This document shows positions 38,281 to 60,119 of a DNA stretch of 64,000 nucleotides, piece by piece. The number at the start of each line of letters is the position of its first letter. The first letter of the stretch is position 1. This DNA is from Bythopirellula goksoeyrii (GTDB lineage: Bacteria; Planctomycetota; Planctomycetia; Pirellulales; Lacipirellulaceae): contig NZ_CP042913.1 of NCBI RefSeq assembly GCF_008065115.1, positions 2,888,338 to 2,952,337 on the forward strand, given 5' to 3'. A model generated the notes under the pieces. It ran no database searches, was not told where the DNA came from, and saw only the letters and a list, made by a program, of their open reading frames with translations. The translations under genes were made by a program, and so were the position numbers.

Positions 38281-38321
38281 TAATACTTGACAAATAACAA
38301 GCACATCCCGATACTACTGTA

Positions 38322-38525: not shown

Positions 38526-38527
38526 CC

Positions 38528-39839
<1,312 letters not shown>

Positions 39840-44201: not shown

Positions 44202-44635
44202 GCTCACCATTCTCAACACGATCAGGGCGTATCGCAAGAATCAAACGCATAGTATCAGCCGTAATGCAAGCTAACGCCTTGCGCAGTCTCTCAGGACGCA
44301 AAACACAAGATTTTGCAAAACCTTATTTCCACCTGCATTCCTTCGGTTACCATCGCTATAGCGTATTATTTCACCTGTCGGTTTTAACGCGGCCATCATT
44401 GGCCAATTCCAAAGCGCGCGCTGACAGCTCTCCCTAGACTTCCATTGTCTACCACTTACCTCCGTAGTAGCATTCCGACCTTATCTTCCTTATGGGACTC
44501 GTGTTAGTCGCTAGAGGCATCCATCTTCGCATTCTTAGATACGTAGTCGGAGAAGAAGACCTACTTGAATTCACTTGGGGGACTAATACATATATCATAA
44601 CTATCCATAGTACTTGCATGTGAGCAAGTTTCGGA
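44202..44635. other. Intergenic gap with dispersed repeat copy 3
   Basis: No gene seen. It separates the accessory block from the twelve-gene minus-strand system on its right. Confidence 0.4.
44318..44382 (+). repeat. Dispersed intergenic repeat, copy 3 (diverged)
   Basis: It aligns to copies 1 and 2 over about 65 bp (ACCTTATTTCCACCTGCATT, CTTCGGTTACCATCGCTATA, then GCGTATTATTTCACCTG). The core CGCTATAGCG is a perfect palindrome in this copy. The right third of the repeat is not recognisable. Confidence 0.55.
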
Positions 44636-45325
44636 TCAAGGACGGTAGCCATCCACTGTTTCTTTTACGTGTTCTGGGTTCTTGATGCCTTTGACCATGA
44701 TCTCCACTTCACCGTGCCCTGCGCTGGCTATCGAGAGACTTCCGACACTCAACAGACGCTGAATCATGGACTGATCGATCTGTAGTAGTCGCACGTCAGA
44801 GTGCCTCACTTCCCGCGTTCGTTTTGATAAAATACCGTGCCTTAGAATAGAACGCCTGTTTGTGATCTTAAGCGAAGTAGTGAGTTTCTCGAAGTGCCAT
44901 TTTGCGAGAAGCAACAACCCAGCAGCCGGAATTCCCCACACCCAAGGCAAAGACTGACCCGTACTCGGATCTTCCGCTACCGAAGCCAGGACAATTCCTA
45001 TAAAGATCAAGAAACATACAAGGACGTATTTGATCGGTCTTGTGCGAAAAGTAGATGGCCTGACCACCAATAAGTCCTGTTCCTTTGCCGTATTGCCTCG
45101 ACCAGAATCACTGAACACTTCCTGGACGACTTGTTGCTTTGGTGGATCAGGTAGAGGTGGCGCAGACGGCTCGACCGTTGCCGCTATTGGAATAGGAGGC
45201 ATAGCAGTCAACTCAGGAATTCTCAACACGTTACCACAACCAGGGCATTTTGCTTTTTGGCCAGCGTACTTGTCGGAAGCCTTGATCGTTTTGTCGCAAT
45301 TCAGGCAATTCACTTTGATCGGCAT
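44636..45325 (-). CDS. Zinc-ribbon and bacterial PH-domain membrane protein
   Basis: A 229-residue protein, the last gene of the GTPase-centred operon. N-terminal zinc ribbon with Cys pairs CLNC and CPGC (about residues 8-31), Pro-rich linker, two TM helices (about 105-122 and 130-145), and a bPH2/DUF304-like domain (SLKITNRRSILRHGILSKRT, VRLLQIDQSMIQRLL, VGSLSIASAG). Such proteins are membrane-bound adaptors. Its start lies 90 bp after the PDZ gene. Confidence 0.78.
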   Translation of the reverse strand: MPIKVNCLNCDKTIKASDKYAGQKAKCPGCGNVLRIPELTAMPPIPIAATVEPSAPPLPDPPKQQVVQEVFSDSGRGNTAKEQDLLVVRPSTFRTRPIKYVLVCFLIFIGIVLASVAEDPSTGQSLPWVWGIPAAGLLLLAKWHFEKLTTSLKITNRRSILRHGILSKRTREVRHSDVRLLQIDQSMIQRLLSVGSLSIASAGHGEVEIMVKGIKNPEHVKETVDGYRP

Positions 45326-45416
45326 GACCAGCTTTCTTTATGTTGAAAAGTTCACTTTAATTGGATACTCGCACCAACGCAAAACTGCCTGAAACTAACA
45401 ATGAGCAGTTGCCATC

Positions 45417-46322
45417 TTAATTACCACGCTGATATTGAAGATACTCTAAAAGTACTTTAATCTCAGATAATTCTGTGTGACTTAATTCGTGCTCTTCCCT
45501 AAACTTCTTGCCGTGATAGAAAATAGATGCCGATTCACAGTCTTGAAGCAATTTGCAGATTTCCCATATCGAATCGGTGGGTGAATCTGGGTTTCCTACC
45601 AAATTGACCCATTCCCAACAAAACTCGTGTGTATTTTCGCGAGTAAATTCGCTGTATTCCGGATCGACTTCTATCTTTTTGCCATCTACAAGAAATGTGA
45701 GTGAATCTACAAACAACCAGGTATCCCCTCGATACATGACTTTTATTACTGGGATTTGTATTCCCTCCTTTGATGCAAGCTTCAAAGAGACTCTGTTTGT
45801 AGTAAGACCTTGATCAGCATCTTTGTGCGATGTGTACCTAAGCCCAGATAATTTGTCATTACTAGTTACGAGTTGCTTCTTAATCAATTCGAGATAACTT
45901 TGAACTGTGATCTCGACTCCCTTTAGAACCCATTTGATTCTACCACCCGAAAACTCTGGGTAGCGAAACACAAGTCGAATCTCATCTCCCACCTTTACTT
46001 TCTTAAGCGACGAGTTGACGTCAGTGGCTGACTTTATTTTGACCTTCCCAATCTGAACTATTAGATCACCTATCCTGATCTTTTCTGCAGCTGCATTACT
46101 GCCATCGAGTACGTTTACGACCACTGCTCCTTGTCTTCCTGGCCAGTGCATTTGTGTTGGACTTTTTAAAGCTTTAGTGAATAATCTGATTAAGTCAGGG
46201 TCTTGTGGAATATCTACAACTGTCATTCCCAGAGCGGGGCGGTTGATGTCATCTTGTTCAGCCGAGCATGGCAGTATTAAGAAGCAAAAAAGACTTGATA
46301 TGTACAATGCTGTTCTTTTCAT
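45417..46322 (-). CDS. Secreted PDZ-domain protein
   Basis: I choose Met 46322 (AAGG eight bases upstream), giving 301 residues; a Met 21 bases upstream is also open. It starts with a signal peptide (TALYISSLFCFLILPCSA). A PDZ domain follows at about 60-110: AVVVNVLDGSNAAAEKIRIG, then DLIVQIGKVKIKSATDVNSS. The C-terminal half is a strand-rich region with WLFVDSLTFLVDGKKIEV and no motif I know. No protease domain is present, so it likely recognises exposed C-termini in the periplasm and serves the neighbouring membrane system. Confidence 0.75.
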   Translation of the reverse strand: MKRTALYISSLFCFLILPCSAEQDDINRPALGMTVVDIPQDPDLIRLFTKALKSPTQMHWPGRQGAVVVNVLDGSNAAAEKIRIGDLIVQIGKVKIKSATDVNSSLKKVKVGDEIRLVFRYPEFSGGRIKWVLKGVEITVQSYLELIKKQLVTSNDKLSGLRYTSHKDADQGLTTNRVSLKLASKEGIQIPVIKVMYRGDTWLFVDSLTFLVDGKKIEVDPEYSEFTRENTHEFCWEWVNLVGNPDSPTDSIWEICKLLQDCESASIFYHGKKFREEHELSHTELSEIKVLLEYLQYQRGN

Positions 46323-46379
46323 CTGGATTACCTTTATGAACAAGCGACGCTTTGTGCAGCTAAATTACCAATGTACTAG

Positions 46380-47273
46380 TTACTGAACCTGCGGATTCGG
46401 CACATACCCCTCGACTACTTCGTCTCCCTGAGAAACCGCGATTAGACGATATTCAAAGCCGCGCTCTACCAAGTAATCGCGGAGGTGTTGAAATTCGAGA
46501 TAGGAATCATCCCAAATAGAAATCTCAATATGTTTACTCGCAGGATTCTGCTTGCTCAAGTATTCGAGAAGTCTTTTTGAAAGTTTGCCTCCTTGGACTA
46601 TGGGAATCCCACGATATGGCTTTGGAGTGATCGTCAAGTATTTTCCTGAATTATCTAGCACAACAAAATCATCGAGATTGAATTCACCATCTGGGTCACG
46701 AGATAGGTACCATCTGCCATATCGAACAGTTGCTGGAATGTGCGCTTTAGAACTGGCTTTTTCTTCAGGGAAAGGAGAATTTATCTTTCGTCTCGCTCGT
46801 TCTTCTTCAAGACTTTTTTGGGTGATCTCCAATGCAGATCCCAATTCCTCGATCTCCGCTTCCAATAGTTCGCCTTTCTCATCAAGTGAGTTTAGTTGAC
46901 CTTGTAAGCGTGAGATAGTTTCGAGAATTGAGGATTTATCCCTGATCAACTCGCTTTTTGATTGCCTTAGTGCAGCGAGCTTCGATAGCGTAGATTCTAA
47001 GGTGGGATCAGCAAGATTAGAGGCTATTGCTTCGCGCGCTTCGACTTCCAGGTTCAGTGAGGATACTTTTGCTTCAATATCTTGAAGAGTACTACGGAGC
47101 TCAGACAGAGTGGCTTGGCTGATGTTAGGTACATCTTCGTGAACCTTACTGGTGTTTTGCAATAGTACGACAACTAGGAGGGCTAAGAATAGAATGCCAC
47201 CAAACGCATTGGTGATCGTATCCAACAGCAGTTCGAGACTGCTGTCGTTGTGAAAGTATCGTCGTTGTGCCAT
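46380..47273 (-). CDS. ExbD/ZorB-like stator protein with coiled coil (second copy)
   Basis: A 297-residue protein: short cytoplasmic N-terminus, then LLLDTITNAFGGILFLALLV with an Asp at the membrane entry, as in ExbD, TolR and MotB. A long coiled coil (about 50-165) and an alpha/beta C-terminal domain follow (KHIEISIWDDSYLEFQHLRDYL by ends, then ERGFEYRL), without OmpA peptidoglycan-binding features that I can see. It starts 3 bp after the paired gene. It probably forms the proton-using stator with the TolQ-like protein. Confidence 0.72.
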   Translation of the reverse strand: MAQRRYFHNDSSLELLLDTITNAFGGILFLALLVVVLLQNTSKVHEDVPNISQATLSELRSTLQDIEAKVSSLNLEVEAREAIASNLADPTLESTLSKLAALRQSKSELIRDKSSILETISRLQGQLNSLDEKGELLEAEIEELGSALEITQKSLEEERARRKINSPFPEEKASSKAHIPATVRYGRWYLSRDPDGEFNLDDFVVLDNSGKYLTITPKPYRGIPIVQGGKLSKRLLEYLSKQNPASKHIEISIWDDSYLEFQHLRDYLVERGFEYRLIAVSQGDEVVEGYVPNPQVQ

Positions 47274-47276
47274 GAT

Positions 47277-48083
47277 TCACCCCGCGCCCTGTTCAGCATC
47301 AATGGCAATTTTATCAGCAGGCAACAAATCGTAACCAATCTTGAACCCCTTGTCCTTTAACTTCTGGGAAAGAGTTCTGAAAGAATCGGTTGTCCCAGGA
47401 TGGACGATGATCACAAATCGGACTCGAGAAGATGATTGCCTACCAGCCCAACTAAGAAAAGCGGACTCTGCTCCTGGGCTGGGAAATCTCTCTGGCGGAG
47501 ATTTCTTTCCTGCCTGGGCTGCTAGAATATCCGATCCAAACAGTTCCACTAAGTAGACTTGACGACCACCAACATCCGATTGGTTATAAAAGACACGTTG
47601 TGAATTCTTCAATTCGGTCAGCTCCGCCTCAACTGCCGCCAGTTCCTTCTGTTTTGTTTTCAGAGATTCGACTTCAGGGTTTCGATTTGTCCAATCAGCT
47701 TTCGCCGTCTTTAACAAGTCCCGCAACTCTGTTTCTTGCGAATGCAATTGAGAAATCTTATTTCGCAACAGAGTGCTTTCTTCCGAGAGTGCTGCCAATT
47801 CAGAAGTAGCCGATCGATTCGTGAAATTTCCCAAATCGCTATCCAAACCGCTGTGCGAGTTAAGGTAACTCGTCAAACTCGACAACCGAGTTTCGGCGTT
47901 ATTGATGTCTTCTTTCAGCTGAGCCGCTTCCTTCGCATTTGTTGCCGAAGGTTTGGCAAGTGTTCGAGTTGTAAGCTCAAGAGCCAACAACAAAGTCATC
48001 AACATTATTACTCCTGTAACAGAAGTAATAATGTCCTGAAAAGAGAACAAGGAAAACGGCGGTTGGTAGCGTTTACGTTTCAT
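47277..48083 (-). CDS. ExbD/ZorB-like stator protein with coiled coil (first copy)
   Basis: A 268-residue protein with the same plan as the next gene: basic N-terminus (MKRKRYQPPFSLFSF), then QDIITSVTGVIMLMTLLLAL with the membrane-entry Asp, a coiled coil (about 50-165) and an alpha/beta end (VRFVIIVHPGTTDSFRTLSQ, then KLKDKGFKIGYDLLP). It overlaps the TolQ-like gene by 11 bp, strong evidence of one complex. Two unequal stator partners in tandem are unusual; they may form a heterodimer. Confidence 0.72.
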   Translation of the reverse strand: MKRKRYQPPFSLFSFQDIITSVTGVIMLMTLLLALELTTRTLAKPSATNAKEAAQLKEDINNAETRLSSLTSYLNSHSGLDSDLGNFTNRSATSELAALSEESTLLRNKISQLHSQETELRDLLKTAKADWTNRNPEVESLKTKQKELAAVEAELTELKNSQRVFYNQSDVGGRQVYLVELFGSDILAAQAGKKSPPERFPSPGAESAFLSWAGRQSSSRVRFVIIVHPGTTDSFRTLSQKLKDKGFKIGYDLLPADKIAIDAEQGAG

Positions 48084-48930
48084 CTGAATGGAACGGCATG
48101 ATGCGCAAGCGGTTTACGATGTTGCGTTGACAGTACTCAGTACAGCTATCCAAAAACTCTTCTTCGTTCTTATGTAAAAAGGTGGTCGCCAATTGCAGAC
48201 AGAGAGCTGCCACAAGGGCAACCAAGGTCGTGTCAAAGGCGGTCGCCAAACCAGAAGTTACCCCCTTTAGTGCAGTTGTAATTTCGCCCATGTCTTCCGT
48301 TGCAGCCATGACTCCCCCAAACCCACTGATGGCATCAGAAAGTCCCAAGACGGTTCCAATAAAACCCAGCACCGGAACTGCCCAAATAAGCCCTCGAATT
48401 AACGAGTAGCTGGACTCCATTATGGATTCGTCGTGCTCTGCTTGACTGCGAAGAATCTCATCAACATCCGTGACACGGCCAAGATTGCGCAAATTGGAAA
48501 GTGCCACTGCGATTCGATTGAACAAGACAAAATGCTTTGGATCGTCCACTATTTTGTAGATATTCTCGAAGACATCTTCGACCGTCGTCGTGGAAAGTAC
48601 GAAGTCGCTCTCTTGGGGAACGATGACATGATCGAGGCATTTTTGTTGTAGCTTAAGCTTCAGCCCCTTGACGATAAGTATGGCGACTCCCCAACTAGTG
48701 GCGAAAACGGAGAAGTACTGTATCGGTCCCCGATTGCAGAAAATATCAACCACGGGGCTTAAATTAGACGGCAGAAACCTAATTCCCATGTAAAACAAGA
48801 TAGTAAGCAACAGGGCTATCATTCCTGTAAATAAGGATGATGTCCTCGTAAACCGAGCACCTTTCAAACCCAATCGGCACTCTGGGTCAGACCGAAGCCA
48901 AGACAGCTTTGCGGGGAGATTATTGTTCAT
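48073..48930 (-). CDS. MotA/TolQ/ExbB-type proton channel subunit
   Basis: A 285-residue membrane protein. Helices near 35-55 and 75-92 precede a cytoplasmic region, then the family signature GLIWAVPVLGFIGTVLGLSD, AISGFGGV, LKGVTSGLATAFDTTLVALV closes the two last helices. This is the conserved pore-lining part of TolQ, ExbB, MotA and ZorA. It should use the proton gradient with the two downstream Asp-bearing single-pass proteins. It lacks the very long cytoplasmic tail of ZorA. Confidence 0.82.
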   Translation of the reverse strand: MNNNLPAKLSWLRSDPECRLGLKGARFTRTSSLFTGMIALLLTILFYMGIRFLPSNLSPVVDIFCNRGPIQYFSVFATSWGVAILIVKGLKLKLQQKCLDHVIVPQESDFVLSTTTVEDVFENIYKIVDDPKHFVLFNRIAVALSNLRNLGRVTDVDEILRSQAEHDESIMESSYSLIRGLIWAVPVLGFIGTVLGLSDAISGFGGVMAATEDMGEITTALKGVTSGLATAFDTTLVALVAALCLQLATTFLHKNEEEFLDSCTEYCQRNIVNRLRIMPFHSDET

Positions 48931-48990
48931 GGGATGTTAGTTGCCTTAGCGATGGAAGATGTACTAGGGATGTTTGATTACTAAATCTGG

Positions 48991-50376
48991 TCAATGAACA
49001 TTGGCAGGCTTCGGCTCGTAGGAGCTAACTCGGTCAATCATAGTATCCTCGGATCGAAGGTAGCCCACTAACAGCGCGAGAGAGGTTGCCGCAGCAGCAA
49101 TGGCCACCCAGGAGTAACTCTCGTCACCAGCGCCAAGATCGTAGAGGCCATGTAAAACAGCGGCAATCAAAACACCTCGAAGTACCCAGCCCCAAGAGTT
49201 GTGGCGAGCGTAATAACTAAGGCCCAAGAAATACCCCGCAAGTCCGGCCCAGACCGCATGCAGCAACGGCAAGCTCAGCCAACGCAGCATGAACAAGAAC
49301 AGCAGCACTCCATATGTTTGAGAACTTGGGTCTGTCGAATTCTCATGCTGGGCTACGTAACCATGGGTGTACGCGACCGCTTCGATCGTGCCAAAAGCTA
49401 ACCCACTAACAACGCCTAAGAAGCAGTAGGTCCTGGGAAGTTTATCAACTTTCAGGTGTGAGGCGACCACGAGCAGAGCGAGTAGCTTGCCTGATTCTTC
49501 TGTAAGTCCCACCCCGAATGTCCAGCCCACGAATCGCTTCAGAAATGATGCCTCACTTGGATTCGTCAAGAAATCTCCCAAAAAGGGCATCACTATCATG
49601 CTGCCAATCACAGCACCGAGCATGCCAAGCGTGGCAGTAAAGAGCCAAACTCCAGCCATTCTCCAGGGACTGATGCGACTGGGATCGATGCACCAATGAA
49701 AGAACGCAGTCCAGAGCAAAGAGAAATAGAGCGAGAAGGTCAGGGCAGCCCAAGTAAGCTCAAGAGTCTCGATTCCGTGGTACTCCAATGCCACCAACGG
49801 AAACAATAATGCAACGGCCAGGCACTGCACCCAGGCCAAGGTCCAACTTCCATCGTTTAATACACCAAACACAGGAAATAGCTCACCCCAACTCATCGCT
49901 GACGTGCTGTTTGGAGAGCCAATTCCGCTAGAAGAAATACTTTTTCCTGAGTTGTTGATTAGATCTGTGATGTCAGCAGCAGCCAACCAGTCTGTCATGC
50001 CTTGTTTCCATACAAGCGTCGTACTGGCTACCTCCCCGGCGGATGCTTTTGATTGCAGGGCTGCCCATGTGACGGGACCTTTCCGATTGCCGTCGACGGC
50101 ATAATACCACTCAGCAGGTGGAGGTTGTGGCTGAGGGAGCACTGCCGCTCGATTTCCAGTTTCTTGAGCTTTGGGAATAGTTTTTTGTGGAGATTCAGTC
50201 TGCTTCGGCTTCACGAACAAATGGGCAATACTACCGGCATCAGACCAAGTGTATCCATCCAAAGAAACTTCATGCGATCTGCCTAGTTGGCCACGCTGGA
50301 CGAGCTCGGCGAGTTTTTTTTCATCAAAAGGGCCGTTGACCCTCCCTCGAATTCGCACGTAATAAGAATCGCCCAT
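48991..50376 (-). CDS. Two GYF_2 domains fused to a PrsW-type intramembrane protease
   Basis: A 461-residue protein. Residues 1-55 (YYVRIRGRVNGPFDEKKLAE) and about 88-140 (EWYYAVDGNRKGPVTWAALQ) are two GYF_2 modules. From about 185 there are eight or so TM helices with the PrsW motifs GLTEESGKLLALL (EExxK), FGTIEAVAY, LLHAVWAG and LHGLYD, the metal-binding His and Glu residues. PrsW cleaves membrane anti-sigma factors in Bacillus. Here it may process a partner in the operon; the GYF domains likely bind Pro-rich segments in neighbours. Confidence 0.85.
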   Translation of the reverse strand: MGDSYYVRIRGRVNGPFDEKKLAELVQRGQLGRSHEVSLDGYTWSDAGSIAHLFVKPKQTESPQKTIPKAQETGNRAAVLPQPQPPPAEWYYAVDGNRKGPVTWAALQSKASAGEVASTTLVWKQGMTDWLAAADITDLINNSGKSISSSGIGSPNSTSAMSWGELFPVFGVLNDGSWTLAWVQCLAVALLFPLVALEYHGIETLELTWAALTFSLYFSLLWTAFFHWCIDPSRISPWRMAGVWLFTATLGMLGAVIGSMIVMPFLGDFLTNPSEASFLKRFVGWTFGVGLTEESGKLLALLVVASHLKVDKLPRTYCFLGVVSGLAFGTIEAVAYTHGYVAQHENSTDPSSQTYGVLLFLFMLRWLSLPLLHAVWAGLAGYFLGLSYYARHNSWGWVLRGVLIAAVLHGLYDLGAGDESYSWVAIAAAATSLALLVGYLRSEDTMIDRVSSYEPKPANVH

Positions 50377-50405
50377 CTCAAGTGGCCTTTTATGAAGAGT
50401 AAATG

Positions 50406-53288
50406 TTAAGGACTAGCTGTGACGGGGAGTTCGGTTCGTAAAAACAACGGCGTGCCTAGCGGTTCAAGACTCTCTTTTGCAATGCTCCATGTTACCTTTC
50501 CAGAATTCACTCTAGCAACTTGCTTCAATTGTGCTTTCTTGTTGCCTGACGTAGTTGCGATATACAGCTTTCCCTCAGAGGTCTCGGGGAGAAGTGGATA
50601 GCATTCCCATTCCGAGCCCTGCTTGCGGCCTAGCACAGCAACCCAGGTGAGTGAATAGCTAGGGGGTAGACAATTGGAACGAAAGAACTCTTTCTTAGAC
50701 TTTACAAGTTCGTCAAAACCAACGAATCCTGCGACGACTGCTTGAGCATCACGTCGCGCTGCCTGGGCATCATTGTCGTCGGGAAGGTACCACGCTACGG
50801 AAAAGTCAATTCCCGAGTTATCGATCTCCTCGATGACTCCTTCGAATGCCTCTTGAAACTGGTAACTTCCGTCACAGCCCGTCTGTAAAACTCTACGAAG
50901 CAAATCCAGGCCCAAAACAGCGTCCAGCGGATGCTCCTGTTTTAGCTTTTCGCGGATATTGCTGGCGAGGAGATAGAAGGTTTTGTCCCAGTTCTCAGTC
51001 GGCAGTTGGTCTAGTTTGTTTTTCGATTCCTCTGCAATGTCTGATTGAGGTGCGCGACCATGCCAGATAACACTGCTTGCCTGTAGGGCTCTCGACTTAG
51101 GAGGATTGGATGAGTCTATTAGGTACTTAAATCTCAATTCTTTACCTGAACCGACTTCCTGAGGAGCTTCGGGACAGTAGAAGCGAGTGTTTTCCTTGTC
51201 GACCACCATCCAGAGGTTGTACATGAACTTGTTTTGCACGAGTGAGTATTTGAGTTCTGCCAAATTGATGTCCTTCCGAGCGACCACCTTATCTAAATAA
51301 GGCTTGCGTTTCTCAAATTCTTTGCTGAGAACATTCTCCAAAGTCTGTTGCTCTAGCTCATTGCCTAAGTCAAGTGTCTCGGTAGCCTCCATTGCAGTTT
51401 GCGTTGTCCAATTGGGTCTCACCTCAGACCAAAAACGATCCCATTTGATTACGGAAAGCCAGGCTTCCTTCTCCCCTATTACCTGTCTCGCATTCGAGGC
51501 AGCAAGAGAGTCAGGCTGCTCTCTTACCACATCAGCCAGTGCTTTCTCAAATACATCGATACGGCCGGCAGACTTGTATACTGCATTCATCAACCGACGT
51601 TCTTTATCGGCTTCACTTTGTTGCCGGATAATAGTACGCAGCTTATTCTCAAGCACATCGCCACGGTTGCGGAGACTAGAGGAAACTCCTGAGTGACTTG
51701 CAAGGTCTTCTTGCAACTTCGTTAGGAGTGACCAAGTCTCCGTTTCATCCGAGCTGCCATTCCGTTCGAGAACGGCTAGTTTTTCGCTCCACTTCTTGAC
51801 GGCTGCCAGGAATGCTTTGTCACGAACCACTTGCTGTTGTTGGTCGTACTTGCGAAGCTTGAACTCGAGATTGGCGAGGCGTTGCTTCTCATCTTCAGTC
51901 TCTGCGAGTTCTCTAATCTGGTCCAAAATCGCTTTGTCGAGATTTTCGACACTTTGAGATTCTGCATAGTCTAGCAGCTCAGCAATTGCTTGAGCCCGAC
52001 TTTGTTCCTCACTAACTCCCTTTGCAACTTGTGAATGCAGCGATTGAATCTTGGCGTCCTCTTGGAAGTCTTGAGGTAGCCCACTAAAATAGCTCTCCGC
52101 TTGGGTCCAGCTCTCTTCGTCAACCAACTCGGAAAAGGCCGTGCGGTGCTCAAGTAAAGTCTCTCGCTGTTGCTGCACTCTCCAGTAGGCAAAGCTTGCA
52201 ACCGCTATCACTATCAGTGATGCAACGATTGAGGCACCAATCAACCGACCGCGGCGGTGTGAATGAGCCGACTGTGTTGCAATGCGATCCTGCACGCGAG
52301 TCAGAAGGCCTTCGGGAATCGGAAGGTCAAATCGTTGCGTCTTGTGTAGGAGGGATTCTAGTTTCTGCTTAGGATCATCTCGTTCGAGCGCTGTTTCCAG
52401 TGACTGAAGTCTAGCCTCGAATTCACGTTGTCGATCTGCCGTTCTGAGCTGCTCGTTGACCCACTCAATCGCTTCGCCTGATCGTTGGGCTAAGGGGTCT
52501 TGTGGGGAAAGGCTCACAAGCTGAGCATACTCGTTCCATCTAGTAGTCAATTCAGCTGCGCGTGGGACATCGAACTCGCTGTATGCTTGATCGAGTTGAG
52601 GCACCAACTCTTCCAATTGTTGGCGTGCGTCGCGATGTTCGAGGGAGCGATAGCCTTCCCTAATCTCCTTCACTAGATCGGGTGAGACCTCACTGGACCA
52701 TTTCGCATTGTTCAGCTCAGCTTGCAATTCGGAAAGTCTGGCGAGATCACCATTGAGAGTCGCTTCCGCAGCCTCCGACTTAATCTGACGCAATCGTAAT
52801 CGTTCGTAGTCAGCAAGGTCAGTTTGCCACGAAAAGTTAAGCTCATCGAGAGCAGTGAGTTTTCTCAACACTTCAATGCGTGCCGACAAGGGTGCCCGAG
52901 CCAGGGCCAAAAGCCGATGTTGCCTGAGTAACTGCTCAAGGGGACGTATCTCGGCATAGGCCACGTTGAGTCGCTTGGCAGCATCGAGTTCTAACTGAGG
53001 TGGTAGTTGCAGATTCCATTGCGCAAGCATCCCTTGCCATTCTTCCAGGAAGGGGAAATCAAGATCTGCGACGTGATTCAGTAATGGGGGTTCTAGCTCG
53101 GCCGACTGGATCGCCTCGCTCCGCAAGCCATCTCGCAGCAGTTTGTCGACCTGCCTCAAACGCTTATTCGCTTCGCGACAAGATTCGTTATAGGCAATCG
53201 ACGCCTCACGGACCAAATCGGGGTCCGCAGTCTCCGGTGCGTTTACCGCATCACGTATGTCATCCAGAAACCAGAGGTCGGTGCTCAT
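50406..53288 (-). CDS. Large coiled-coil single-pass membrane protein
   Basis: A 960-residue protein, highly helical and acidic. The first 340 residues form cytoplasmic coiled coils (EAELNNAKWSSEVSPDLVKE, EYAQLVSLSP), one TM helix lies at about 343-362 (IVASLIVIAVASFAYW), and a second long helical region and a globular C-terminus follow (WYLPDDND, LTWVAVLGRKQGSEWECYPL). I know no family for it. Its start lies 6 bp after the GAP1-like gene, and its size suggests a scaffold connecting the GTPase module with the stator complex. Confidence 0.68.
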   Translation of the reverse strand: MSTDLWFLDDIRDAVNAPETADPDLVREASIAYNESCREANKRLRQVDKLLRDGLRSEAIQSAELEPPLLNHVADLDFPFLEEWQGMLAQWNLQLPPQLELDAAKRLNVAYAEIRPLEQLLRQHRLLALARAPLSARIEVLRKLTALDELNFSWQTDLADYERLRLRQIKSEAAEATLNGDLARLSELQAELNNAKWSSEVSPDLVKEIREGYRSLEHRDARQQLEELVPQLDQAYSEFDVPRAAELTTRWNEYAQLVSLSPQDPLAQRSGEAIEWVNEQLRTADRQREFEARLQSLETALERDDPKQKLESLLHKTQRFDLPIPEGLLTRVQDRIATQSAHSHRRGRLIGASIVASLIVIAVASFAYWRVQQQRETLLEHRTAFSELVDEESWTQAESYFSGLPQDFQEDAKIQSLHSQVAKGVSEEQSRAQAIAELLDYAESQSVENLDKAILDQIRELAETEDEKQRLANLEFKLRKYDQQQQVVRDKAFLAAVKKWSEKLAVLERNGSSDETETWSLLTKLQEDLASHSGVSSSLRNRGDVLENKLRTIIRQQSEADKERRLMNAVYKSAGRIDVFEKALADVVREQPDSLAASNARQVIGEKEAWLSVIKWDRFWSEVRPNWTTQTAMEATETLDLGNELEQQTLENVLSKEFEKRKPYLDKVVARKDINLAELKYSLVQNKFMYNLWMVVDKENTRFYCPEAPQEVGSGKELRFKYLIDSSNPPKSRALQASSVIWHGRAPQSDIAEESKNKLDQLPTENWDKTFYLLASNIREKLKQEHPLDAVLGLDLLRRVLQTGCDGSYQFQEAFEGVIEEIDNSGIDFSVAWYLPDDNDAQAARRDAQAVVAGFVGFDELVKSKKEFFRSNCLPPSYSLTWVAVLGRKQGSEWECYPLLPETSEGKLYIATTSGNKKAQLKQVARVNSGKVTWSIAKESLEPLGTPLFLRTELPVTASP

Positions 53289-53294
53289 GTCGGT

Positions 53295-55943
53295 TTACTT
53301 CTTGGAACTTCGAAAGGGACGAGTGTTAACTGTGGATTCAAAAATGATTTCTCCTGCCCCATACTCTTCATAAGTAGTGGGATCGTAAGTCTTTAGTGCT
53401 GTTCCAAGCTCACAGTCGCATTCAACCTTCTTCAAATCCTTTAAACACATTTCCGGATCGAAATTGTCAGGAAACTCTTTTGAATTGTGTTCAATATCCA
53501 GCTTATTGAATCTCTCTTGAACCGCTCTACGATCTTTCTCGTCTCCTTTCAAGAGGGCTTCTTTTTCAGCAGTTGTTCCTTTTCTAAGGATATCAACTGC
53601 CGACTGCCAACCTGAAGAATCTTCGAGCAGATCTTCATTTTTACAAAATTTCTTGAATGCATTGGCTGCAATAATCCAGTCACTTATGATTTTGAACGAT
53701 ATCTTTTTGGGTTCCTGTTTTGTTTCCGTTGCAACCCAAGTCAACGTCGTGTTGAAATCTCCGTTAACAGAGTTCTGGTTTGTGTAATTAGGCCTTAGTT
53801 CGAGTGATATTTGAAACCAGAGATTTCTCCAGCTGCCAAAAGTTACCAGAAGCGGCGAAGTCTCATCTGAAGCAAAGTTTTTACTCTCGGAATTGGAATC
53901 AACGAAGCTAAGATAGTAACGAGAACTTGGATCGGTATCCGAAATGGTCCATTTTGCGCAAAGCAACTCTCTTGTATTAAGCTGCTGCTCCCAAGGCTTG
54001 GAATCATCAATCAACTTAATAGTGGGCGCGACCTTCCTTCTCTTGCGAAGTGACAAAAGACAATGATGCGTCTCAGAAGAACCATCACTGGAGGCAGAAA
54101 GATCAATAACACAATGAGACAAATACCTCCTGAATTTTTCCTTTTGCCCTTGCTTTGATAGTTTTAACGAAAGGAATGTTCCTTCAGGGTTTAGCTCCAA
54201 GATCGCTGGCAGGCGTGGTTTCATATGGGAGCCACGTTCCTCCGAAGGGCATAACTTAAGCGGATTCTGATCATCAAATTGCAAAGTCGAGCCAGGAATC
54301 TTTCCTTCGTTATCTTCTGACTTCAGAATTTCAGGATAATAACACTTAGCTTTCAGGTCTCTTTCTTGTAATTCTGAATTTAGAGGGATTCTCCACTCAA
54401 ATCGTGTTAGCCTTTTGTTTTCATCTAGCTCCAACAAATCGATTGTCTCGATATGATTCTTAAACGGATTTACATCCTTGGATATATTTCCGGTTGCGTT
54501 CTCGGGCGTAACATTTGCATCTGATGCAGCAACGGGAATTGTATGTGTTGCTTGATTCGGCTCATTCTTGCTTAAGGAGGCTCCTAAATGCGATTCTGTT
54601 ATTGTGTTGGGAATATCGGGAGATCCTGATGTATCTAGTTCCAATTTGCTTTCTTGTATTATATTTGTTGGACGCGCTTCATCAGCAATCTCACCTGATT
54701 TGGGCAGCCGCTGCTCTTTCACTGCCGGTGTCTTTTTCTCATCTACACCCTTTTCCTCTGATGCGGCGCCCGTTGCAACTGGATCACTAGACTCTTCGCT
54801 CTTTGGTGGGGAAATCGAACTGTGCTCCGCAACCTGGCTGGCTACCTTGGTGAACCAATCCTTTTTGAACCCATAGTAGAGGGCAAAGGAGCTAGCAACT
54901 AAGAAAAGTAACACGGCCAATGCGCCTGCCAAGAGCCAGGCGCTCTTTCGTTCTGCAGATTCTCCCTGCGAATGAAAACGGGACTGTGTTTTGGGTTCAA
55001 ATCGTCTAGGTAAAGGAGGAGGAGCAGAAGTCACGACGTCTGCTAAGTTGACTTCGTAGGCATCCTCATCCACCAGCTCTACTTCGTCAGAGTCTGAAAT
55101 CAAAACCGAAGGCAAATCCGGATGACTAGCCTCTGGTACGTCACCTGTGCGAGCAGCAGTCGTGAAGGCACCTTCCGAAGGAGATCCCAATTTCTGGCAG
55201 AGATCCAAGACTTTTAGTTCATAACGTTTGCGAAGCTGCTCGGCTTCAGGGGTTCCATCAACAGCAAATCGAACCCGACAATCAATCCCGGGAGGGATCT
55301 TGGTATAAAACGTGGTGTAGGTGGTCTGCCATCGTATGGCAGGTGGCAGCAAAGCCAGCGACTCTTCAAGAAGTCGCAGCGGCTCGACTCCTAAAGGATA
55401 GATGATCCATTGCTCGTTATCCCTGCTGCGGAGCAACCGCTCGGCGAGGACGCCTCCCCATCCTGCGTCTCCCGTGACCTCCTGCCAATAATCACAGACA
55501 GCAGGATTCAATTCTGTTGTTGGTAGGTCCCTCGGACGTTCTATGAGGTGGGGTTCACCGCTCCAGGATATTTCATGGAATCCGGAGTAGCCCTGGATGG
55601 CTGTTGGTCCTAGATCAGGAAGTTTCACTGAGCTAAGTACTACGTGGTGTGCCAGCTTATTGGTACGCCCTGAGTAATCCAATCCTGCATCCGCAACCCG
55701 TGAGAGAATCTGGAGGCTGCGTCCCCCCAAGCGAACTTTCAGGTGGCTGTAGACGACCGGGTTTCGCGCAGAATCTGCTGATCCAGGCTCGGCGAGGTGC
55801 CGATAACCGCTCAGTGATTCAAGCAAGCCCACCAGATTGGCGGCCATCCCTGCCGTGCTAGCTACGGTACAGAATCCCTTGCTCCCAGGCTTAAGCCCTT
55901 GAGGTGATGAAGTGTAAATGAGTTCCTCGATCATGGACTTCAA
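53295..55943 (-). CDS. GAP1-N2-like GTPase-associated membrane protein
   Basis: An 882-residue protein. Residues 1-235 (ELIYTSSPQGLKPGSKGFCT, VASTAGMAANLVGLLESLSG, then the NKLAHHVVL segment) match what I recall of the GAP1-N2 domain, the N-terminal part of GTPase-associated protein 1 in proposed NTP-dependent conflict systems. A Pro-rich linker, a TM helix at about 337-358 (WLLAGALAVLLFLVASSFAL), a low-complexity segment and a strand-rich C-terminus follow. The gene starts 9 bp after the GTPase stop, the expected partnership. The canonical GAP1 middle and C-terminal domains seem to be replaced by the TM region. Confidence 0.72.
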   Translation of the reverse strand: MKSMIEELIYTSSPQGLKPGSKGFCTVASTAGMAANLVGLLESLSGYRHLAEPGSADSARNPVVYSHLKVRLGGRSLQILSRVADAGLDYSGRTNKLAHHVVLSSVKLPDLGPTAIQGYSGFHEISWSGEPHLIERPRDLPTTELNPAVCDYWQEVTGDAGWGGVLAERLLRSRDNEQWIIYPLGVEPLRLLEESLALLPPAIRWQTTYTTFYTKIPPGIDCRVRFAVDGTPEAEQLRKRYELKVLDLCQKLGSPSEGAFTTAARTGDVPEASHPDLPSVLISDSDEVELVDEDAYEVNLADVVTSAPPPLPRRFEPKTQSRFHSQGESAERKSAWLLAGALAVLLFLVASSFALYYGFKKDWFTKVASQVAEHSSISPPKSEESSDPVATGAASEEKGVDEKKTPAVKEQRLPKSGEIADEARPTNIIQESKLELDTSGSPDIPNTITESHLGASLSKNEPNQATHTIPVAASDANVTPENATGNISKDVNPFKNHIETIDLLELDENKRLTRFEWRIPLNSELQERDLKAKCYYPEILKSEDNEGKIPGSTLQFDDQNPLKLCPSEERGSHMKPRLPAILELNPEGTFLSLKLSKQGQKEKFRRYLSHCVIDLSASSDGSSETHHCLLSLRKRRKVAPTIKLIDDSKPWEQQLNTRELLCAKWTISDTDPSSRYYLSFVDSNSESKNFASDETSPLLVTFGSWRNLWFQISLELRPNYTNQNSVNGDFNTTLTWVATETKQEPKKISFKIISDWIIAANAFKKFCKNEDLLEDSSGWQSAVDILRKGTTAEKEALLKGDEKDRRAVQERFNKLDIEHNSKEFPDNFDPEMCLKDLKKVECDCELGTALKTYDPTTYEEYGAGEIIFESTVNTRPFRSSKK

Positions 55944-55952
55944 CTCGTCAGC

Positions 55953-57245
55953 CTATTGTGAATTGGTGGCTCGTTGGCAGGTGGGAACTAATCCCCCCGT
56001 CGTACAAGCCAATGCCGTCAAGAAGGGAACCTCGCACCACATGGGATTTATATTCTTTGGTTTTACGCCCCACTGCTCCTTTCCTTCGACCGTGCCCATG
56101 TACTCCGGAGCGCTGCCTGTAGCGCTCACGGGGATAAACCACGTCTGGTGACTGAATTCTTCTGCCGCACTCACGAGCTCAGGCGTCACTTGACTCAATA
56201 AGCCTCGAATGGCATCAGACACTTTCTTAACCAAATCCATGTCCAGGCAAGACAATCCTTTGTTTCCAACTGGACGCCATGGGGTTGGAAGTCGCTCATA
56301 GTGATTCAGTGGCCACCAAGCATCGTATTTGGTGACCATAACGATAAGGGGTTGCTGCCTGCGTTCGGTCTGCTTGAGGCCTGAGTGGTGGCGAACTCGA
56401 TGCACAAGCTCATGCAATACAGTCTCTTGTCGGGCGGTCACAGGTGCCTTGGAAATCTGGTAATCGTCGGTACGGCCTTGACAAGCCTCTCGAAAACGAG
56501 GGTCTTGAGTCGGATCGAAGCAAAACAAAATTGCGTGAGATTGCGAGAGGTGCCGTGTTACAGGGGAGGCAACCGTATCTGCCCCTGGAAGGAAAGACTC
56601 TCCGGCGTTGTCATAGACACATAGGATTCTTGATACCTTGCTGGCATTCTCAGCAGAAGGATGCTTCTGTGTAGTGCGAAGGGTAAATAGAAAAGGTCGA
56701 GGATAGCTAATTCTCTGTTCTCCATATTGGACAATGTCATAAGCATCACCTTGTTCCTCAGTCTTCTTCAGTTTAACGATCTGATCAGAACTCGGATTGT
56801 GAAATTGATCTTCTTCATATTTGTTTAGGATGCTGTTGGAGGTTGGATCTGCATCGGAGAAGCTGAGGAGAAAATTCCTGGGCAGGGTTTGCCTAAGCGT
56901 CCACGTCATCGCAGCTAGATAATAGCTCTTCCCACAGGAAGGAGTCCCAGCAATCGACATGAATACTGGGGGAAGTTCCAGCAGCTCGCGAGGGATAGTC
57001 AGGTGGCAACGAGGGCAAGCAAGTTCCTGGCAAACCATGCCACGAATATCAATGGCATTCCCCTCAGCATTGAATCGTGTCGGCAAGAACCTCTGATGCT
57101 TATCAGGCCCAAGCCTCGGGTCATTAAGGAGATCTGGGTGCGTAGCAACCCAGAGTACATCCTCGGATGCAAATGCTTCCCAGCAATGGGGACAGTTTAT
57201 ACGTGTGCGTAGACCTATGCGGATTTTTTTGGAGACCACAGACAT
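55953..57245 (-). CDS. P-loop GTPase of the GAP1-linked class, with split zinc ribbon
   Basis: A 430-residue protein. NCPHCWEAF (about 18-26) and ELACPRCHL (about 72-82) form a zinc ribbon interrupted by a 50-residue insert. AGTPSCGKSYYL (about 98-109) is Walker A, CVYDNAGESFLPG the Walker B/G3 with DNAG, and VMVTKYDAW (about 302) the TKxD base-recognition motif. This order fits the TRAFAC-type GTPases encoded beside GAP1 proteins. No TM segment is present. It is the likely switch of the operon: nucleotide state would control the membrane partners. Confidence 0.8.
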   Translation of the reverse strand: MSVVSKKIRIGLRTRINCPHCWEAFASEDVLWVATHPDLLNDPRLGPDKHQRFLPTRFNAEGNAIDIRGMVCQELACPRCHLTIPRELLELPPVFMSIAGTPSCGKSYYLAAMTWTLRQTLPRNFLLSFSDADPTSNSILNKYEEDQFHNPSSDQIVKLKKTEEQGDAYDIVQYGEQRISYPRPFLFTLRTTQKHPSAENASKVSRILCVYDNAGESFLPGADTVASPVTRHLSQSHAILFCFDPTQDPRFREACQGRTDDYQISKAPVTARQETVLHELVHRVRHHSGLKQTERRQQPLIVMVTKYDAWWPLNHYERLPTPWRPVGNKGLSCLDMDLVKKVSDAIRGLLSQVTPELVSAAEEFSHQTWFIPVSATGSAPEYMGTVEGKEQWGVKPKNINPMWCEVPFLTALACTTGGLVPTCQRATNSQ

Positions 57246-57254
57246 TCAGCTGTC

Positions 57255-57929
57255 TCATTTGATTTTCAGAGGTTTACCGATGATAGGAATGCCTTTAGCT
57301 CCAAGTCCTTCTCCATATTTCTCTAAGTCTTTTAAGAGATCTTCCGATAATTCATCGCACGCTTTGTCGGCCAGGTGAGGCTGAAGCGATTGCCACCCTT
57401 GCAGAGCCTGCTCATAGGCTTCAGCATTGTCGCCACTCTTCGATAGTTCAGAAGACTTCTCACGTTGACGGTTTGCATAAGCCAAAGCATCCTCAGGCGA
57501 ATCAAACTTTGGCGAGGGCATTGTTGGCTGGGATACACCGCCTGTGCCTGTAGCTGAATCACCGGCTCCAGATGGTGCGTTAGCAGGTGAGCCATTTCCT
57601 GAGCCCCCGCCATTCCCATTGGAACTTTCATTTCCTTCGCCAGAAGCCCCTCCGGTTTCAGAATCGCCAGCTTGCCCCGCATCTCCTTTTTTATCTGAAG
57701 TTTCCGATTCATTCTCACCACCGCTTGGCCCTCCTTCGCTCTCTTCGCTCTCAGTACTGCCAGATTCTGAGGAAGCTTCTTCTCCCTGAGTACCCTGAGA
57801 AGTTGAGTCATCAGCTTCTTGTTGGGCAGGTTGGCTCGGAGAGCTTGAGCTTTCTCTGCATCCTTGGCAGCCGGATGAAATGCTGAGGAGAGTTACTACC
57901 AAAGAAGAACAGAGAAAAGTGTGGACCAT
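57255..57929 (-). CDS. Lipoprotein with acidic low-complexity linker
   Basis: A 224-residue protein. A signal peptide with a lipobox-like end (LLSISSGC, lipidated Cys) is followed by about 110 residues of Ser, Glu and Gly (SESEESEGGPSGGENES, NGNGGGSGNG), then a helical C-terminal domain (FDSPEDALAYANRQREKSSE, ACDELSEDLLKDL). The linker could span the periplasm. It ends 9 bp before the GTPase start, so both are in one transcript. No known family. Confidence 0.7.
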   Translation of the reverse strand: MVHTFLCSSLVVTLLSISSGCQGCRESSSSPSQPAQQEADDSTSQGTQGEEASSESGSTESEESEGGPSGGENESETSDKKGDAGQAGDSETGGASGEGNESSNGNGGGSGNGSPANAPSGAGDSATGTGGVSQPTMPSPKFDSPEDALAYANRQREKSSELSKSGDNAEAYEQALQGWQSLQPHLADKACDELSEDLLKDLEKYGEGLGAKGIPIIGKPLKIK

Positions 57930-58035
57930 GGTCTGGACAGCCTCTACATTGAAAGAGCGTGAAGTAGGTAGGCCAAACCATCCATATTAGCCCAGAAGTA
58001 TTCCAAGAGCAAGTCTATGGAATTTGTGGATACTA

Positions 58036-58722
58036 CTATGGTTCAGATTGTTGCCTATGTGGCATCGGAGATTTTTCGACAGCCATTTGCTCAAGTAACT
58101 CTTGGGATGCGAAAGTATTTCGCTCAATCTGAATACCGAGGCGAATAATGTTAGAAATGAACAGCAGGACTAAATTGACTAATCCGACACCGACGCACAA
58201 TCGGAAAATATAAAAAAGAAATCCGCTAAGGTTCTGGCCGGAGCTGACACGGTTTTCTGAATACTCATAACACAGAATCGCAATTGCAATAGCCGCAAGA
58301 ACGACAAAAATAATTGCTAAGAATTCAAGGGTCCTCGCTATGATACGTAACGCCCAATAATCCCTCGAAGGAGTCGCGGTGTTTCGTAACCATCGATTCT
58401 CAGTGTCGGGGGCAATGGCTGTGGTGCTTGAATCCTCATGCTTGAATTCTGGAGGCGAGGGAGGTACTGGGGGGACATTAGCGACATCATTCCGCGACTG
58501 AGTAGGCCCATCAAAGTCAATGTCAAAGGAATCTGGATTTACTGCTGCACTCTTGACTGGCGGTTTTTCTATCACAACTGGGGTAGCAGGGACTTCGGCA
58601 AGTACAAAACGCTCTCCACATTTCGTACAACGTGTACGTTTGCCGATAACGGCTTGAGCGACTTGAAACCGGGCAGAGCAGTGAGGACAAGCGGTAGTGA
58701 CTTGCATATTAATTGGATCCAT
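58036..58722 (-). CDS. MJ0042-type zinc-ribbon membrane protein
   Basis: A 228-residue protein. Its N-terminal zinc ribbon has TACPHCSARFQVAQAV and RCTKCGERFVLAE. A Pro-rich linker follows, then two TM helices (about 130-150 and 172-192) and a short basic tail. It belongs to the group of planctomycete adaptor-like membrane proteins without a known role. It lies about 100 bp before the lipoprotein gene and in the same direction, so it is probably part of the operon. Confidence 0.68.
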   Translation of the reverse strand: MDPINMQVTTACPHCSARFQVAQAVIGKRTRCTKCGERFVLAEVPATPVVIEKPPVKSAAVNPDSFDIDFDGPTQSRNDVANVPPVPPSPPEFKHEDSSTTAIAPDTENRWLRNTATPSRDYWALRIIARTLEFLAIIFVVLAAIAIAILCYEYSENRVSSGQNLSGFLFYIFRLCVGVGLVNLVLLFISNIIRLGIQIERNTFASQELLEQMAVEKSPMPHRQQSEP

Positions 58723-58977
58723 GGATCTCGGCAGAAAGCCACTAAATCATCTTCTCGAATATTGGGCAGAGTAGTGTTATGTCCTCACTAGGCCGAGTCT
58801 AATTGCCCAAGTGACGGCTTTCAACTAAATCCATGAGTAATCCATGGACAAAATGAGAATACTGCAGAAAACGTTCAAACTCAGGCCACATTGCCTGCAA
58901 GAAATGACCCAGGCACATTGGTGGGTTCAGGTAGAGTTTGAGAAGTGAGGCAATTGCGATAAGTTTCAGCTGGGAAA

Positions 58978-59793
58978 CTATATGCTTGCTAGGCGTACAA
59001 ACATTATCAACAAAGACAAGCCAGCAAGAATCATTCCACCAGTTCGCATACCTCCGCCACCTAATGAGGGATTTCGCATGAGGCTGTTCGTGGAGACAGT
59101 TCCGCATACTAGCGCCATCGGTGCGAAAAGGATTGGCAGGATTAGTAGTGATAAGATGCCGGAAATCAATGTAAGCACAGCGAAAGGATCTGTTCCCGTG
59201 ATCTTGGGGTTGTTTGGAACATACTCCTGTTTGAACTCTGCGCTACTTAGTGGAGCGCCACAATTGGGGCAGGTTGTCGCTCGCCTGGATATGGTAGCGC
59301 CGCAATCAGGACATTGAGTTAAAGACTCTTTTCGGGAAGTAGATGGATGTGATGCACGAGTGTGCCCGGTCTCTTTGTCTCTATGCCCCAAGTCTCCCGG
59401 GGAATCATTGGCCCCCGACTGCTTCGCTATCTCAAGTAATCCTGGAATCGCATCTGCAGCCAGCCAATTTGGGAACTTGTTTGTCCAGACCAATGTGCTT
59501 GGCGCGACCTGCCCAGACAAATTGCGTTCGCTAAATTCGGAGAAAGAGATCGGACCAATAGTCTCTCCCATCGATTGGAAATACCAGTCAGAAGTGAGGC
59601 AGTCACTAACTGAGGGAATTCCATCCGACGCTAGTGTTTGGTCAGAGGATTGTTCGAGACTCAGATTCTTTTCAATAGTAAAAGCTTTGCCGCATTTGGT
59701 ACATTTCGTATTTTTCCCCAGCAGCCGAGACGGCATGTTGAAAGTAGCCCCACAATTTGGGCAATCCACTTCTATGGCTGAGTTAGCAGGCAT
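58978..59793 (-). CDS. GYF_2 and double zinc-ribbon membrane protein (DUF4190-like end)
   Basis: From Met 59793 this is 271 residues; a Met at 59904 is open but adds poor sequence. Order: zinc ribbon (DCPNCGATF ... CTKCGKAF), GYF_2 domain (DWYFQSMGETIGPISFSEF, about 75-125), second zinc ribbon (CPDCGATI ... CPNCGAPL) and two TM helices with FAVLTLISGILSLLILPIL, like DUF4190. The first gene of the minus-strand system. The promoter should lie in 59794-60100. The frame 58799-59107 overlapping its end is treated as a shadow. Confidence 0.7.
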   Translation of the reverse strand: MPANSAIEVDCPNCGATFNMPSRLLGKNTKCTKCGKAFTIEKNLSLEQSSDQTLASDGIPSVSDCLTSDWYFQSMGETIGPISFSEFSERNLSGQVAPSTLVWTNKFPNWLAADAIPGLLEIAKQSGANDSPGDLGHRDKETGHTRASHPSTSRKESLTQCPDCGATISRRATTCPNCGAPLSSAEFKQEYVPNNPKITGTDPFAVLTLISGILSLLILPILFAPMALVCGTVSTNSLMRNPSLGGGGMRTGGMILAGLSLLIMFVRLASI

Positions 59794-60119
59794 GGCATTG
59801 TGTCTAGATTGCGACGGTATAAATAGCTTTCTTGCCTCGCAACAATCTGGAGACCTCGGAGAATTGTTACCGAACGTCCCCATTCCCAAAAAGGTTGCAC
59901 TCAAATCAGTATAGCTTCGCTGAGAGCCGCAATGAATGCCTGTGCAATATAATACATGAGCTTGAAGCTCCTGATCCTAGGAAGCTGGAAAGGTTTCCCC
60001 TCACAATCCGCCAAATGATACCAGTCTCCGCCAAGGTGAGAGTCTGGCGGAGTGTGGCGAGACTGTGGCGGGGTGTGACATAGAGCTTGTGACGAGATTG
60101 AGGCTAGAATTGGCTACCC
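59794..60119. other. Intergenic region upstream of the minus-strand operon
   Basis: Expected to hold the promoter of the GYF-zinc-ribbon gene. A duplicated CCGCCA...GGCGGAGTGTGGCG segment near 60030-60080 gives short direct repeats (TGGCGGAGTGTGGCG and TGTGGCGGGGTGTG). No gene is seen. Confidence 0.35.

Follow-up and report, generated by a model that had tools for sequence, protein, structure and literature searches.

A conserved GTPase, GAP1-N2 and ExbB-ExbD gene set in Bythopirellula goksoeyrii that may encode a GTPase-controlled envelope machine

What would a zinc-ribbon GTPase, a GAP1-type protein and an ExbB/TolQ-type proton channel do together in a single operon? The question is raised by twelve minus-strand genes in a 64,000-nucleotide stretch of the Bythopirellula goksoeyrii genome (contig NZ_CP042913.1, positions 2,888,338 to 2,952,337; hereafter the window, to which all coordinates refer), the genome being a single contig of 6.47 Mb. 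A first-pass annotation, made from the sequence alone, had described these genes as a unit with a tight core, and all 12 open reading frames were confirmed, spanning 44.6-59.9 kb of the window. Seven of them encode, in order, a GTPase, GAP1, a coiled-coil membrane protein (CC), a GYF/PrsW protein, ExbB and two ExbD-like proteins (ExbD1 and ExbD2). The ExbD1 and ExbB genes overlap by 11 bp, and the core gaps are narrow between ExbD2 and ExbD1 (3 bp), GAP1 and CC (6 bp), GTPase and GAP1 (9 bp), and lipoprotein and GTPase (9 bp), and wider between CC and GYF/PrsW (29 bp), PDZ and ExbD2 (36 bp), GYF/PrsW and ExbB (60 bp), and PH and PDZ (91 bp). We consider it probable that the product of the locus is an envelope machine driven by protons and controlled by a GTPase. 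The proposal in which a small-GTPase switch under a longin-DENN-like regulator acts through a splittable coupler with a single transmembrane (TM) helix to gate a proton motor of the 5:2 type is quite possible and is put forward tentatively.

To define the conserved part of the locus, GAP1-N2 neighbourhoods were gathered from relatives and from the phylum, ExbB neighbourhoods were taken from a scan of one genome per species (the best 80 of 496 relatives were kept), and gene order was read by six-frame profile searches. The order GTPase-GAP1-CC-GYF-ExbB-ExbD1-ExbD2 recurred across the collected loci far above chance, and it was found in Planctomycetota, Lentisphaerota, Verrucomicrobiota, and Desulfamplus (Thermodesulfobacteriota). 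At the 41 loci where the DNA upstream of ExbB extended to 9 kb or more, the upstream genes included the GTPase in 33, GAP1 in 34, CC in 37, and GYF in 32; the GTPase counts are conservative because L156 and L168, scored as lacking an upstream GTPase, carry one downstream. Exactly two ExbD-like genes adjoined ExbB in 57 of the 65 loci with at least 3 kb of downstream DNA. The ExbB tree sorted by phylum with four changes against a minimum of three, indicating few transfers. The Desulfamplus loci (L143, L145, L149, L160, L171, and L181) form one clade beside Lentisphaerota, likely the result of a single transfer. The earlier expectation that the genes are conserved together thus held for the seven-gene core and failed for the PDZ, PH, and ZnR-2TM genes, which lie outside it. 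GAP1-N2 was present in 22 of 59 relatives and ExbB matches in 9 of 59, part of the latter belonging to a distant GTPase-less family. Apart from the window genome itself, G010 was alone among the genomes sampled from that genus in combining a GAP1-N2 match with a close ExbB, and only an ExbB fragment remains in G027, from the same family as the window genome; losses are therefore frequent. The fragment (L239, G027:C1:4672300-4692200) stands alone, is 62% identical to ExbB residues 131-273, has no nearby ExbD or GTPase, and is probably a relic of the system in that family.

The residues expected of a proton channel are present in the putative motor. ExbB (285 residues, 48073-48930) matched MotA_ExbB (PF01618) with 44.3 bits against a cut-off of 22.9 (E 1.8e-11), and its two stretches PVLGFIGTVLGL and GLATAFETT show no variation at the key positions, among them Thr193, Thr234, and Thr235; the GFIGTV and GLxxAFxTT stretches are invariant among 16 ExbB homologues. 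A comparison of the ExbB profile with the PDB gave a weak TolQ match (E 0.07). ExbD1 (268 residues, 47277-48083) and ExbD2 (297 residues, 46380-47273) each have a single TM helix, which starts with FQD and LxLLLD, respectively, and in which Asp17 and Asp18 were invariant in 15/15 sequences each. The proton-carrying Asp of MotB, ExbD, and TolR sits at the same place (PMC9389320). ExbD1 and ExbD2 fell into separate orthologous groups (2 of 74 misplaced), from which we conclude that the pair is ancient. The first-pass assignment of a TolQ/ExbB protein with two ExbD-like partners is supported by the MotA_ExbB match and the invariant Thr and Asp residues but not by a Pfam ExbD match in the window proteins, which is why we call the partners ExbD-like. 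These sequence features support the view that the three proteins are a unit of the proton-channel type, its channel residues being conserved. A second planctomycete ExbB-ExbD-ExbD family (L227-L233, L241), located by single-sequence search, has no GTPase, GAP1, or CC; its ExbB proteins are 480-680 residues long, are 31-37% identical, and have an N-terminus that matches the profile of the PH/zinc-ribbon protein of the window.

The proposed coupler between the GTPase and the motor is CC (960 residues, 50406-53288), which consists of a helical cytoplasmic half (residues 1-350), a TM helix at about 347-373, a helical periplasmic rod, and a C-terminal alpha/beta region. Its AlphaFold2 (AF2) model (mean predicted local distance difference test score 85.9) likewise has helical cytoplasmic and periplasmic arms and the C-terminal alpha/beta region. 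Wherever a locus carried the GTPase together with ExbB (52 loci), CC had its full length (median 984 residues, TM near 354). At three GTPase-GAP1-GYF loci with no ExbB (L030, L075, and L093) it stops directly past the TM helix, at 377-439 residues, and at five motor loci where the retrieved DNA contained neither the GTPase nor GAP1 (L148, L153, L157, L174, and L234; L174 has just 1.1 kb of upstream DNA) it lacks the N-terminal ~290 residues and begins shortly upstream of the TM helix. CC tree distances correlated at 0.86 with those of the GTPase and at 0.72-0.77 with those of ExbB and the ExbDs, whereas the GTPase and the motor proteins correlated with each other at 0.64-0.69, lower than the values for CC. 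We conclude that CC is, by its pattern of truncation, modular, the cytoplasmic half apparently siding with GTPase-GAP1 and the periplasmic half with the motor. Foldseek and VIA comparisons of the helical parts of CC gave generic helical matches only, residues 689-755 matched small SH3-like YgdR-type lipoproteins at Z ~7, and PDB sequence profiles of CC, ExbD1, and GAP1 returned only coiled-coil or low-complexity noise.

The GTPase (430 residues, 55953-57245) is a DO-GTPase2-like cytoplasmic protein. Its first-pass description as a P-loop GTPase with a split zinc ribbon is borne out by the motifs GTPSCGKS (G1, residue 100), DNAGE (212), TKYD (305), and PVSATG (372) and by two CxxC pairs at residues 18 and 77, ~60 residues apart; DNAGE and both pairs were invariant or nearly so among 31 sequences. 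The Glu that follows the Walker B/DxxG motif is, like the N-terminal zinc ribbon, as in the TRAFAC type. In the suggested comparison with the DO-GTPase models of Pfam, the window protein itself fell below the cut-off (16.6-17.4 bits against 27), whereas 26 of the 31 family members matched DO-GTPase2 (PF19993) with E values of 0.01 or lower (best 1e-8). The PDB profile comparison gave a weak match to the GTPase Der (E 0.002).

The gene before ExbB encodes two GYF domains and a PrsW intramembrane protease (461 residues, 48991-50376), both earlier domain calls being upheld by Pfam (GYF_2, PF14237, 1.7e-25; PrsW, PF13367, 4.8e-22). Four motif regions are expected for the PrsW family, and EESGK, FGTIEA, HAVWAG, and HGLYD are present. 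GYF_2 was found in 55 of the 56 proteins of this slot, and their tails vary (DUF4190 in nine, TM2 in six, PrsW in four, RDD in two, and trypsin in one). We conclude that the protein is a constant GYF head with a variable membrane tail and that PrsW is one cargo among several; PrsW, earlier a candidate effector, was rejected as the conserved effector, occurring in only 4/56. Of 31 GTPases, five contain GYF as a fused domain and five carry FHA. Three Desulfamplus loci with such GYF fusions (L149, L160, and L181) have no separate GYF gene before ExbB, and GYF is thus tied to the GTPase side. PPPLP-type motifs before the TM helix of GAP1 (11 of 60 proteins versus 3.1 in shuffles) were set aside as a GYF ligand, being a minority signal only.

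GAP1 (882 residues, 53295-55943) consists of GAP1-N2 and GAP1-M domains, after which come a single TM helix and a periplasmic part of low conservation. The GAP1-N2 call of the first-pass annotation passed the profile search with 93.5 bits against a cut-off of 24 (PF20013, 1.5e-26), GAP1-M scored 37.2 bits against the same cut-off (PF20014, 3.5e-9), and each domain was matched by 30 of 30 family members; one homologue also has Ig-like Big_13/Big_6 matches. The AF2 model was confident for residues 1-270, corresponding to GAP1-N2 plus GAP1-M, and mostly unreliable past the TM helix. The fold of residues 1-285 (model m96014fafc3d0) was compared by Foldseek, in which TagF was the sole match below 0.001, and by VIA, in which the leading matches were DENND10 (Z 8.0, 233 residues aligned, 4.5 Å), DENND1A-Rab35 (7.7, 229), TagF (7.6, 226), and DENND1B (7.3, 218), along with a Lokiarchaeal roadblock-longin protein (5.7). 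The top 24 VIA rows were all DENN, longin, roadblock-longin, or TagF proteins or complexes, and the first other fold came at Z 3.8. Because the list is uniform and the coverage domain-wide, a longin-DENN-like fold is our best guess for the modelled residues 1-285. No sequence match to the DENN/longin regulators was detectable. DENN-type regulators are frequently heterodimeric; a second GAP1-like gene lies upstream of the GTPase in L029, L079, L080, L081, and L085. Binding to small GTPases is known for both DENN modules and longin/roadblock domains (PMC3521125). In the fold comparison the type VI secretion protein TagF ranks beside the DENN proteins, which suggests that, on these models, TagF may also be longin-DENN-like; homology of GAP1 and TagF at the sequence level was rejected, no Pfam match being found.

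Because GAP1-N2 and GAP1-M pass their Pfam cut-offs, the locus is assigned by sequence to the type that Kaur et al. 2020 described as DO-GTPase/GAP1-N2 systems (PMC7159879). It shares with them a TM-containing protein of GAP1-N2 plus GAP1-M, encoded downstream of a TRAFAC GTPase that has a zinc ribbon and a DNAGE-type motif. Fibronectin type III (FNIII) repeats, typical of that type, are said to be fast-evolving and were not used to classify; Pfam found none in the window proteins. Kaur et al. noted planctomycete members in which two GYF domains are joined to trypsin or to a region rich in TM helices; longin, DENN, and roadblock go unmentioned, as do MotA, ExbB, TolQ, ExbD, TolR, PrsW, and proton channels in the main text (PMC7159879). 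What sets the present locus apart from those published systems is a conserved core of seven genes, which includes a motor and a coupler in two parts. In the open-access literature we found no paper that links DO-GTPase/GAP1-N2 systems to a proton motor, one only that uses GAP1-N2, and none that combines a GYF domain, ExbD, and a GTPase; with respect to that literature, the joining of the GTPase and motor halves, each described before, is new.

The best functional analogue appears to be MglA/MglB with the Agl-Glt machinery of Myxococcus xanthus, a family to which the locus does not belong. The two have in common one TolQ-like and two TolR/ExbD-like proteins with a TM Asp, a small GTPase with a regulator that is, here by predicted fold, of the roadblock/longin class, FHA, helical envelope proteins, and a lipoprotein (PMC3169522, PMC5349195, PMC9389320). 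They differ in that the GTPase here is DO-GTPase2-like and the regulator longin-DENN-like instead of roadblock; the GTPase and GAP1 gave no roadblock family match and matched the DO-GTPase and GAP1 families instead of MglA/MglB, and neither a GltG/GltJ TonB-like transducer nor homologous Glt proteins were found. PVC clusters with TolQ, two TolR genes, and vWA force transducers have been described with no mention of GTPase or GYF (TPR-TolQ-TolR-TolR-vWA; PMC12204202, 2025); some loci in our set similarly encode a TM-anchored periplasmic vWA protein, but the SHLS motif of the published transducers is absent from the collected loci. Zorya ZorAB is likewise of the 5:2-type channel family with a TM Asp in the B subunit (essential in ZorB), but it differs in the peptidoglycan-binding domain of ZorB, the long cytoplasmic tail of ZorA, and further defence partners (PMC11890865); here the ExbDs had no OmpA-type Pfam match, ExbB has 285 residues, and no ZorC, ZorD, or ZorE genes were found. 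The predicted fold of GAP1 1-285 resembles DENN/longin regulators (DENND1A-Rab35, FLCN-FNIP2, and C9orf72-SMCR8; PMC3521125) and bacterial TagF, whereas the partner GTPase, unlike those of the eukaryotic regulators, is of a bacterial TRAFAC family.

In the envelope machine that we favour, the zinc-ribbon GTPase would be a cytoplasmic switch whose nucleotide state is set, through exchange or GAP activity, by the longin-DENN-like cytoplasmic head of membrane-anchored GAP1. The GYF adaptor, on the GTPase side, would bring in variable membrane or periplasmic modules, here PrsW. Within a putative physical complex, the GTPase state would be relayed across the membrane, in this direction, by single-span CC (and GYF) to ExbB-ExbD1-ExbD2, where ExbB and the heterologous ExbD pair would form the proton channel or motor. 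Proton flow would then drive work in the periplasm or on the outer membrane, and the resulting force on the envelope or outer membrane, comparable to that in Agl-Glt or Tol/Ton, may serve adhesion/motility, envelope maintenance, or defence. If this is true, two orphan predictions, the GAP1-N2 GTPase systems and the PVC TolQ/TolR-pair motors, become one machine whose order of action can be tested, a new class of envelope motors under GTPase control in PVC bacteria and, beside Myxococcus, a second independent case of a GTPase steering a TolQR-class motor. It would also put DENN-type regulation in bacteria and make GAP1, if its fold holds, a bacterial protein related to the longin-DENN regulators of membrane traffic in eukaryotes. 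The PVC phylum group is best known for unusual internal membranes.

Several observations weigh against the GTPase-controlled machine. Its organism-level distribution is patchy, no outer-membrane target was found, and neither the window proteins nor 15 ExbD2 homologues matched PF02472 (ExbD) at E up to 0.1. No TM segment with the SHLS motif (SxxxHxxxxxxLxxxS) occurred in any open reading frame of the collected loci, and a TonB/TolA-like transducer of this kind in the operon was rejected. The module rule for CC has exceptions, in that a full CC without a neighbouring ExbB occurs in L028, L083, L089, and L094 and a GYF gene stands beside a motor without a GTPase in L135; the truncated-CC loci moreover represent few independent events, four of the five motor-only loci forming a tight clade. 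The GAP1 Z scores (≤8.0) lie in a range compatible with a common arrangement, and a predicted fold is not an activity. A loose-linkage explanation, that ExbB-ExbD1-ExbD2 is an independent transporter beside the GAP1 system by chance, could draw on the GTPase-less ExbB-ExbD-ExbD family and on GAP1-N2 systems in which ExbB is absent, but seven genes kept in order over several phyla, the correlated trees, and the splitting of CC make it highly improbable. A strict surface-motility or adhesion machine, in which the motor moves or pulls outer-membrane adhesins and the GTPase sets position or polarity as in Myxococcus gliding, is a narrower form of the envelope machine and is doubtful. The parts list is similar to that of the gliding machinery (one TolQ, two TolRs, a GTPase with a roadblock/longin-class regulator, FHA, a lipoprotein, and helical proteins; PMC3169522, PMC5349195), and L032 encodes a periplasmic vWA accessory protein; against this, the GTPase family and the regulator differ from those of Myxococcus, the operon has no outer-membrane barrel, and the window locus has no vWA gene. 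Gliding is also not known for most carriers of the system.

An envelope-stress or quality-control role, in which the GTPase and GYF recruit PrsW or trypsin-like proteases, ExbB/ExbD maintains the outer membrane, and the PDZ protein is a periplasmic sensor, is unlikely. Protease tails do recur (PrsW in 4/56 and trypsin in 1/56 GYF proteins), further GYF-trypsin and FHA-trypsin accessory genes exist, and a few psp operons link DO-GTPase to membrane stress (PMC11237479), but most loci have no protease in the GYF slot, Tol-Pal-like duties are usually covered by other genes, and the PDZ gene is confined to the window locus. We similarly regard as improbable the conflict or phage-defence role that the first-pass annotation had offered, with an envelope role as its equal alternative. 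It would have infection or envelope damage sensed, the GTPase fire, and the ion channel or PrsW act as effector in the manner of ZorAB, and it agrees with the proposal of Kaur et al. that GAP1-N2 families are conflict systems (PMC7159879), the patchy presence among the 59 relatives, the adjoining integrase at 38.5-39.8 kb, and the variable GYF tails. When 100 flanking genes were compared with 100 control genes, however, no defence enrichment was seen: at 1e-15 PADLOC matched about four flank genes and at least as many in the control regions, and a defence-island context was rejected. The operon has no nuclease or toxin among its genes, as was first noted, its PADLOC scores were weak and of a generic coiled-coil/MotA-type kind (including Zor), the ExbB tree tracks phyla with changes near the least possible, and the motor core is constant where the supposed effector tail varies. 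These results gave the defence role no positive support, and the envelope role is now the better supported of the two.

The remaining genes of the operon appear to be accessory to different degrees. A low-complexity lipoprotein with the lipobox SSGC (224 residues, 57255-57929) is a recurrent upstream neighbour of the GTPase, with profile matches in that position in L029, L081, L087, L112, L125, L138, L142, and L144. The secreted PDZ protein (308 residues, 45417-46343; PDZ_2 1.1e-8) had no full-length homologue in the other collected neighbourhoods and is a lineage-specific accessory. The zinc-ribbon protein with a membrane helix and a bacterial PH domain (229 residues, 44636-45325; bPH_2 1.6e-14) had profile matches in some other loci, at no fixed position, and is also accessory; its PH domain and the PDZ domain agree with the earlier calls. 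ZnR-2TM, with a zinc ribbon and two TM helices (228 residues, 58036-58722; Zn_ribbon_4 0.00017, below the cut-off), has a homologue upstream of the GTPase in L076 and is an occasional accessory. The outermost gene (58978-59904, alternative ATG start at 59793) encodes ZnR-GYF, a 308-residue zinc ribbon-GYF-zinc ribbon protein with a DUF4190-like membrane tail (GYF_2 1.5e-12, Zn_ribbon_3 3.8e-10; DUF4190 6.1e-6, below the cut-off) that is probably a second GYF adaptor. These two upstream genes are more loosely spaced (gaps of 106 and 255 bp), and because of the 255 bp that part it from the operon the ZnR-GYF gene may be a separate unit. Accessory genes in relatives encode TM-vWA, GYF-TM-trypsin, FHA-TM-trypsin, and GYF-TM-squalene-cyclase-like repeat proteins, a Ser/Thr kinase, and Sel1 repeats. 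In L111 (4867-6708) and L116 (13574-15184) a squalene-cyclase-like helical repeat domain follows a TM helix, one of the two proteins also having GYF, and both belong to an accessory cluster that recurs in 11 loci.

Beyond the operon, a small mobile element with an AAA_25 (RepA-like) ATPase and a tyrosine integrase (the one at 38.5-39.8 kb) adjoins it on the opposite strand (36606-39838, plus). An S1/P1 nuclease gene (43053-44237, minus) lies directly downstream, 398 bp from the PH gene, followed further downstream by genes for an SRAP protein (42149-42769) and a DUF3800 protein (40977-41783).

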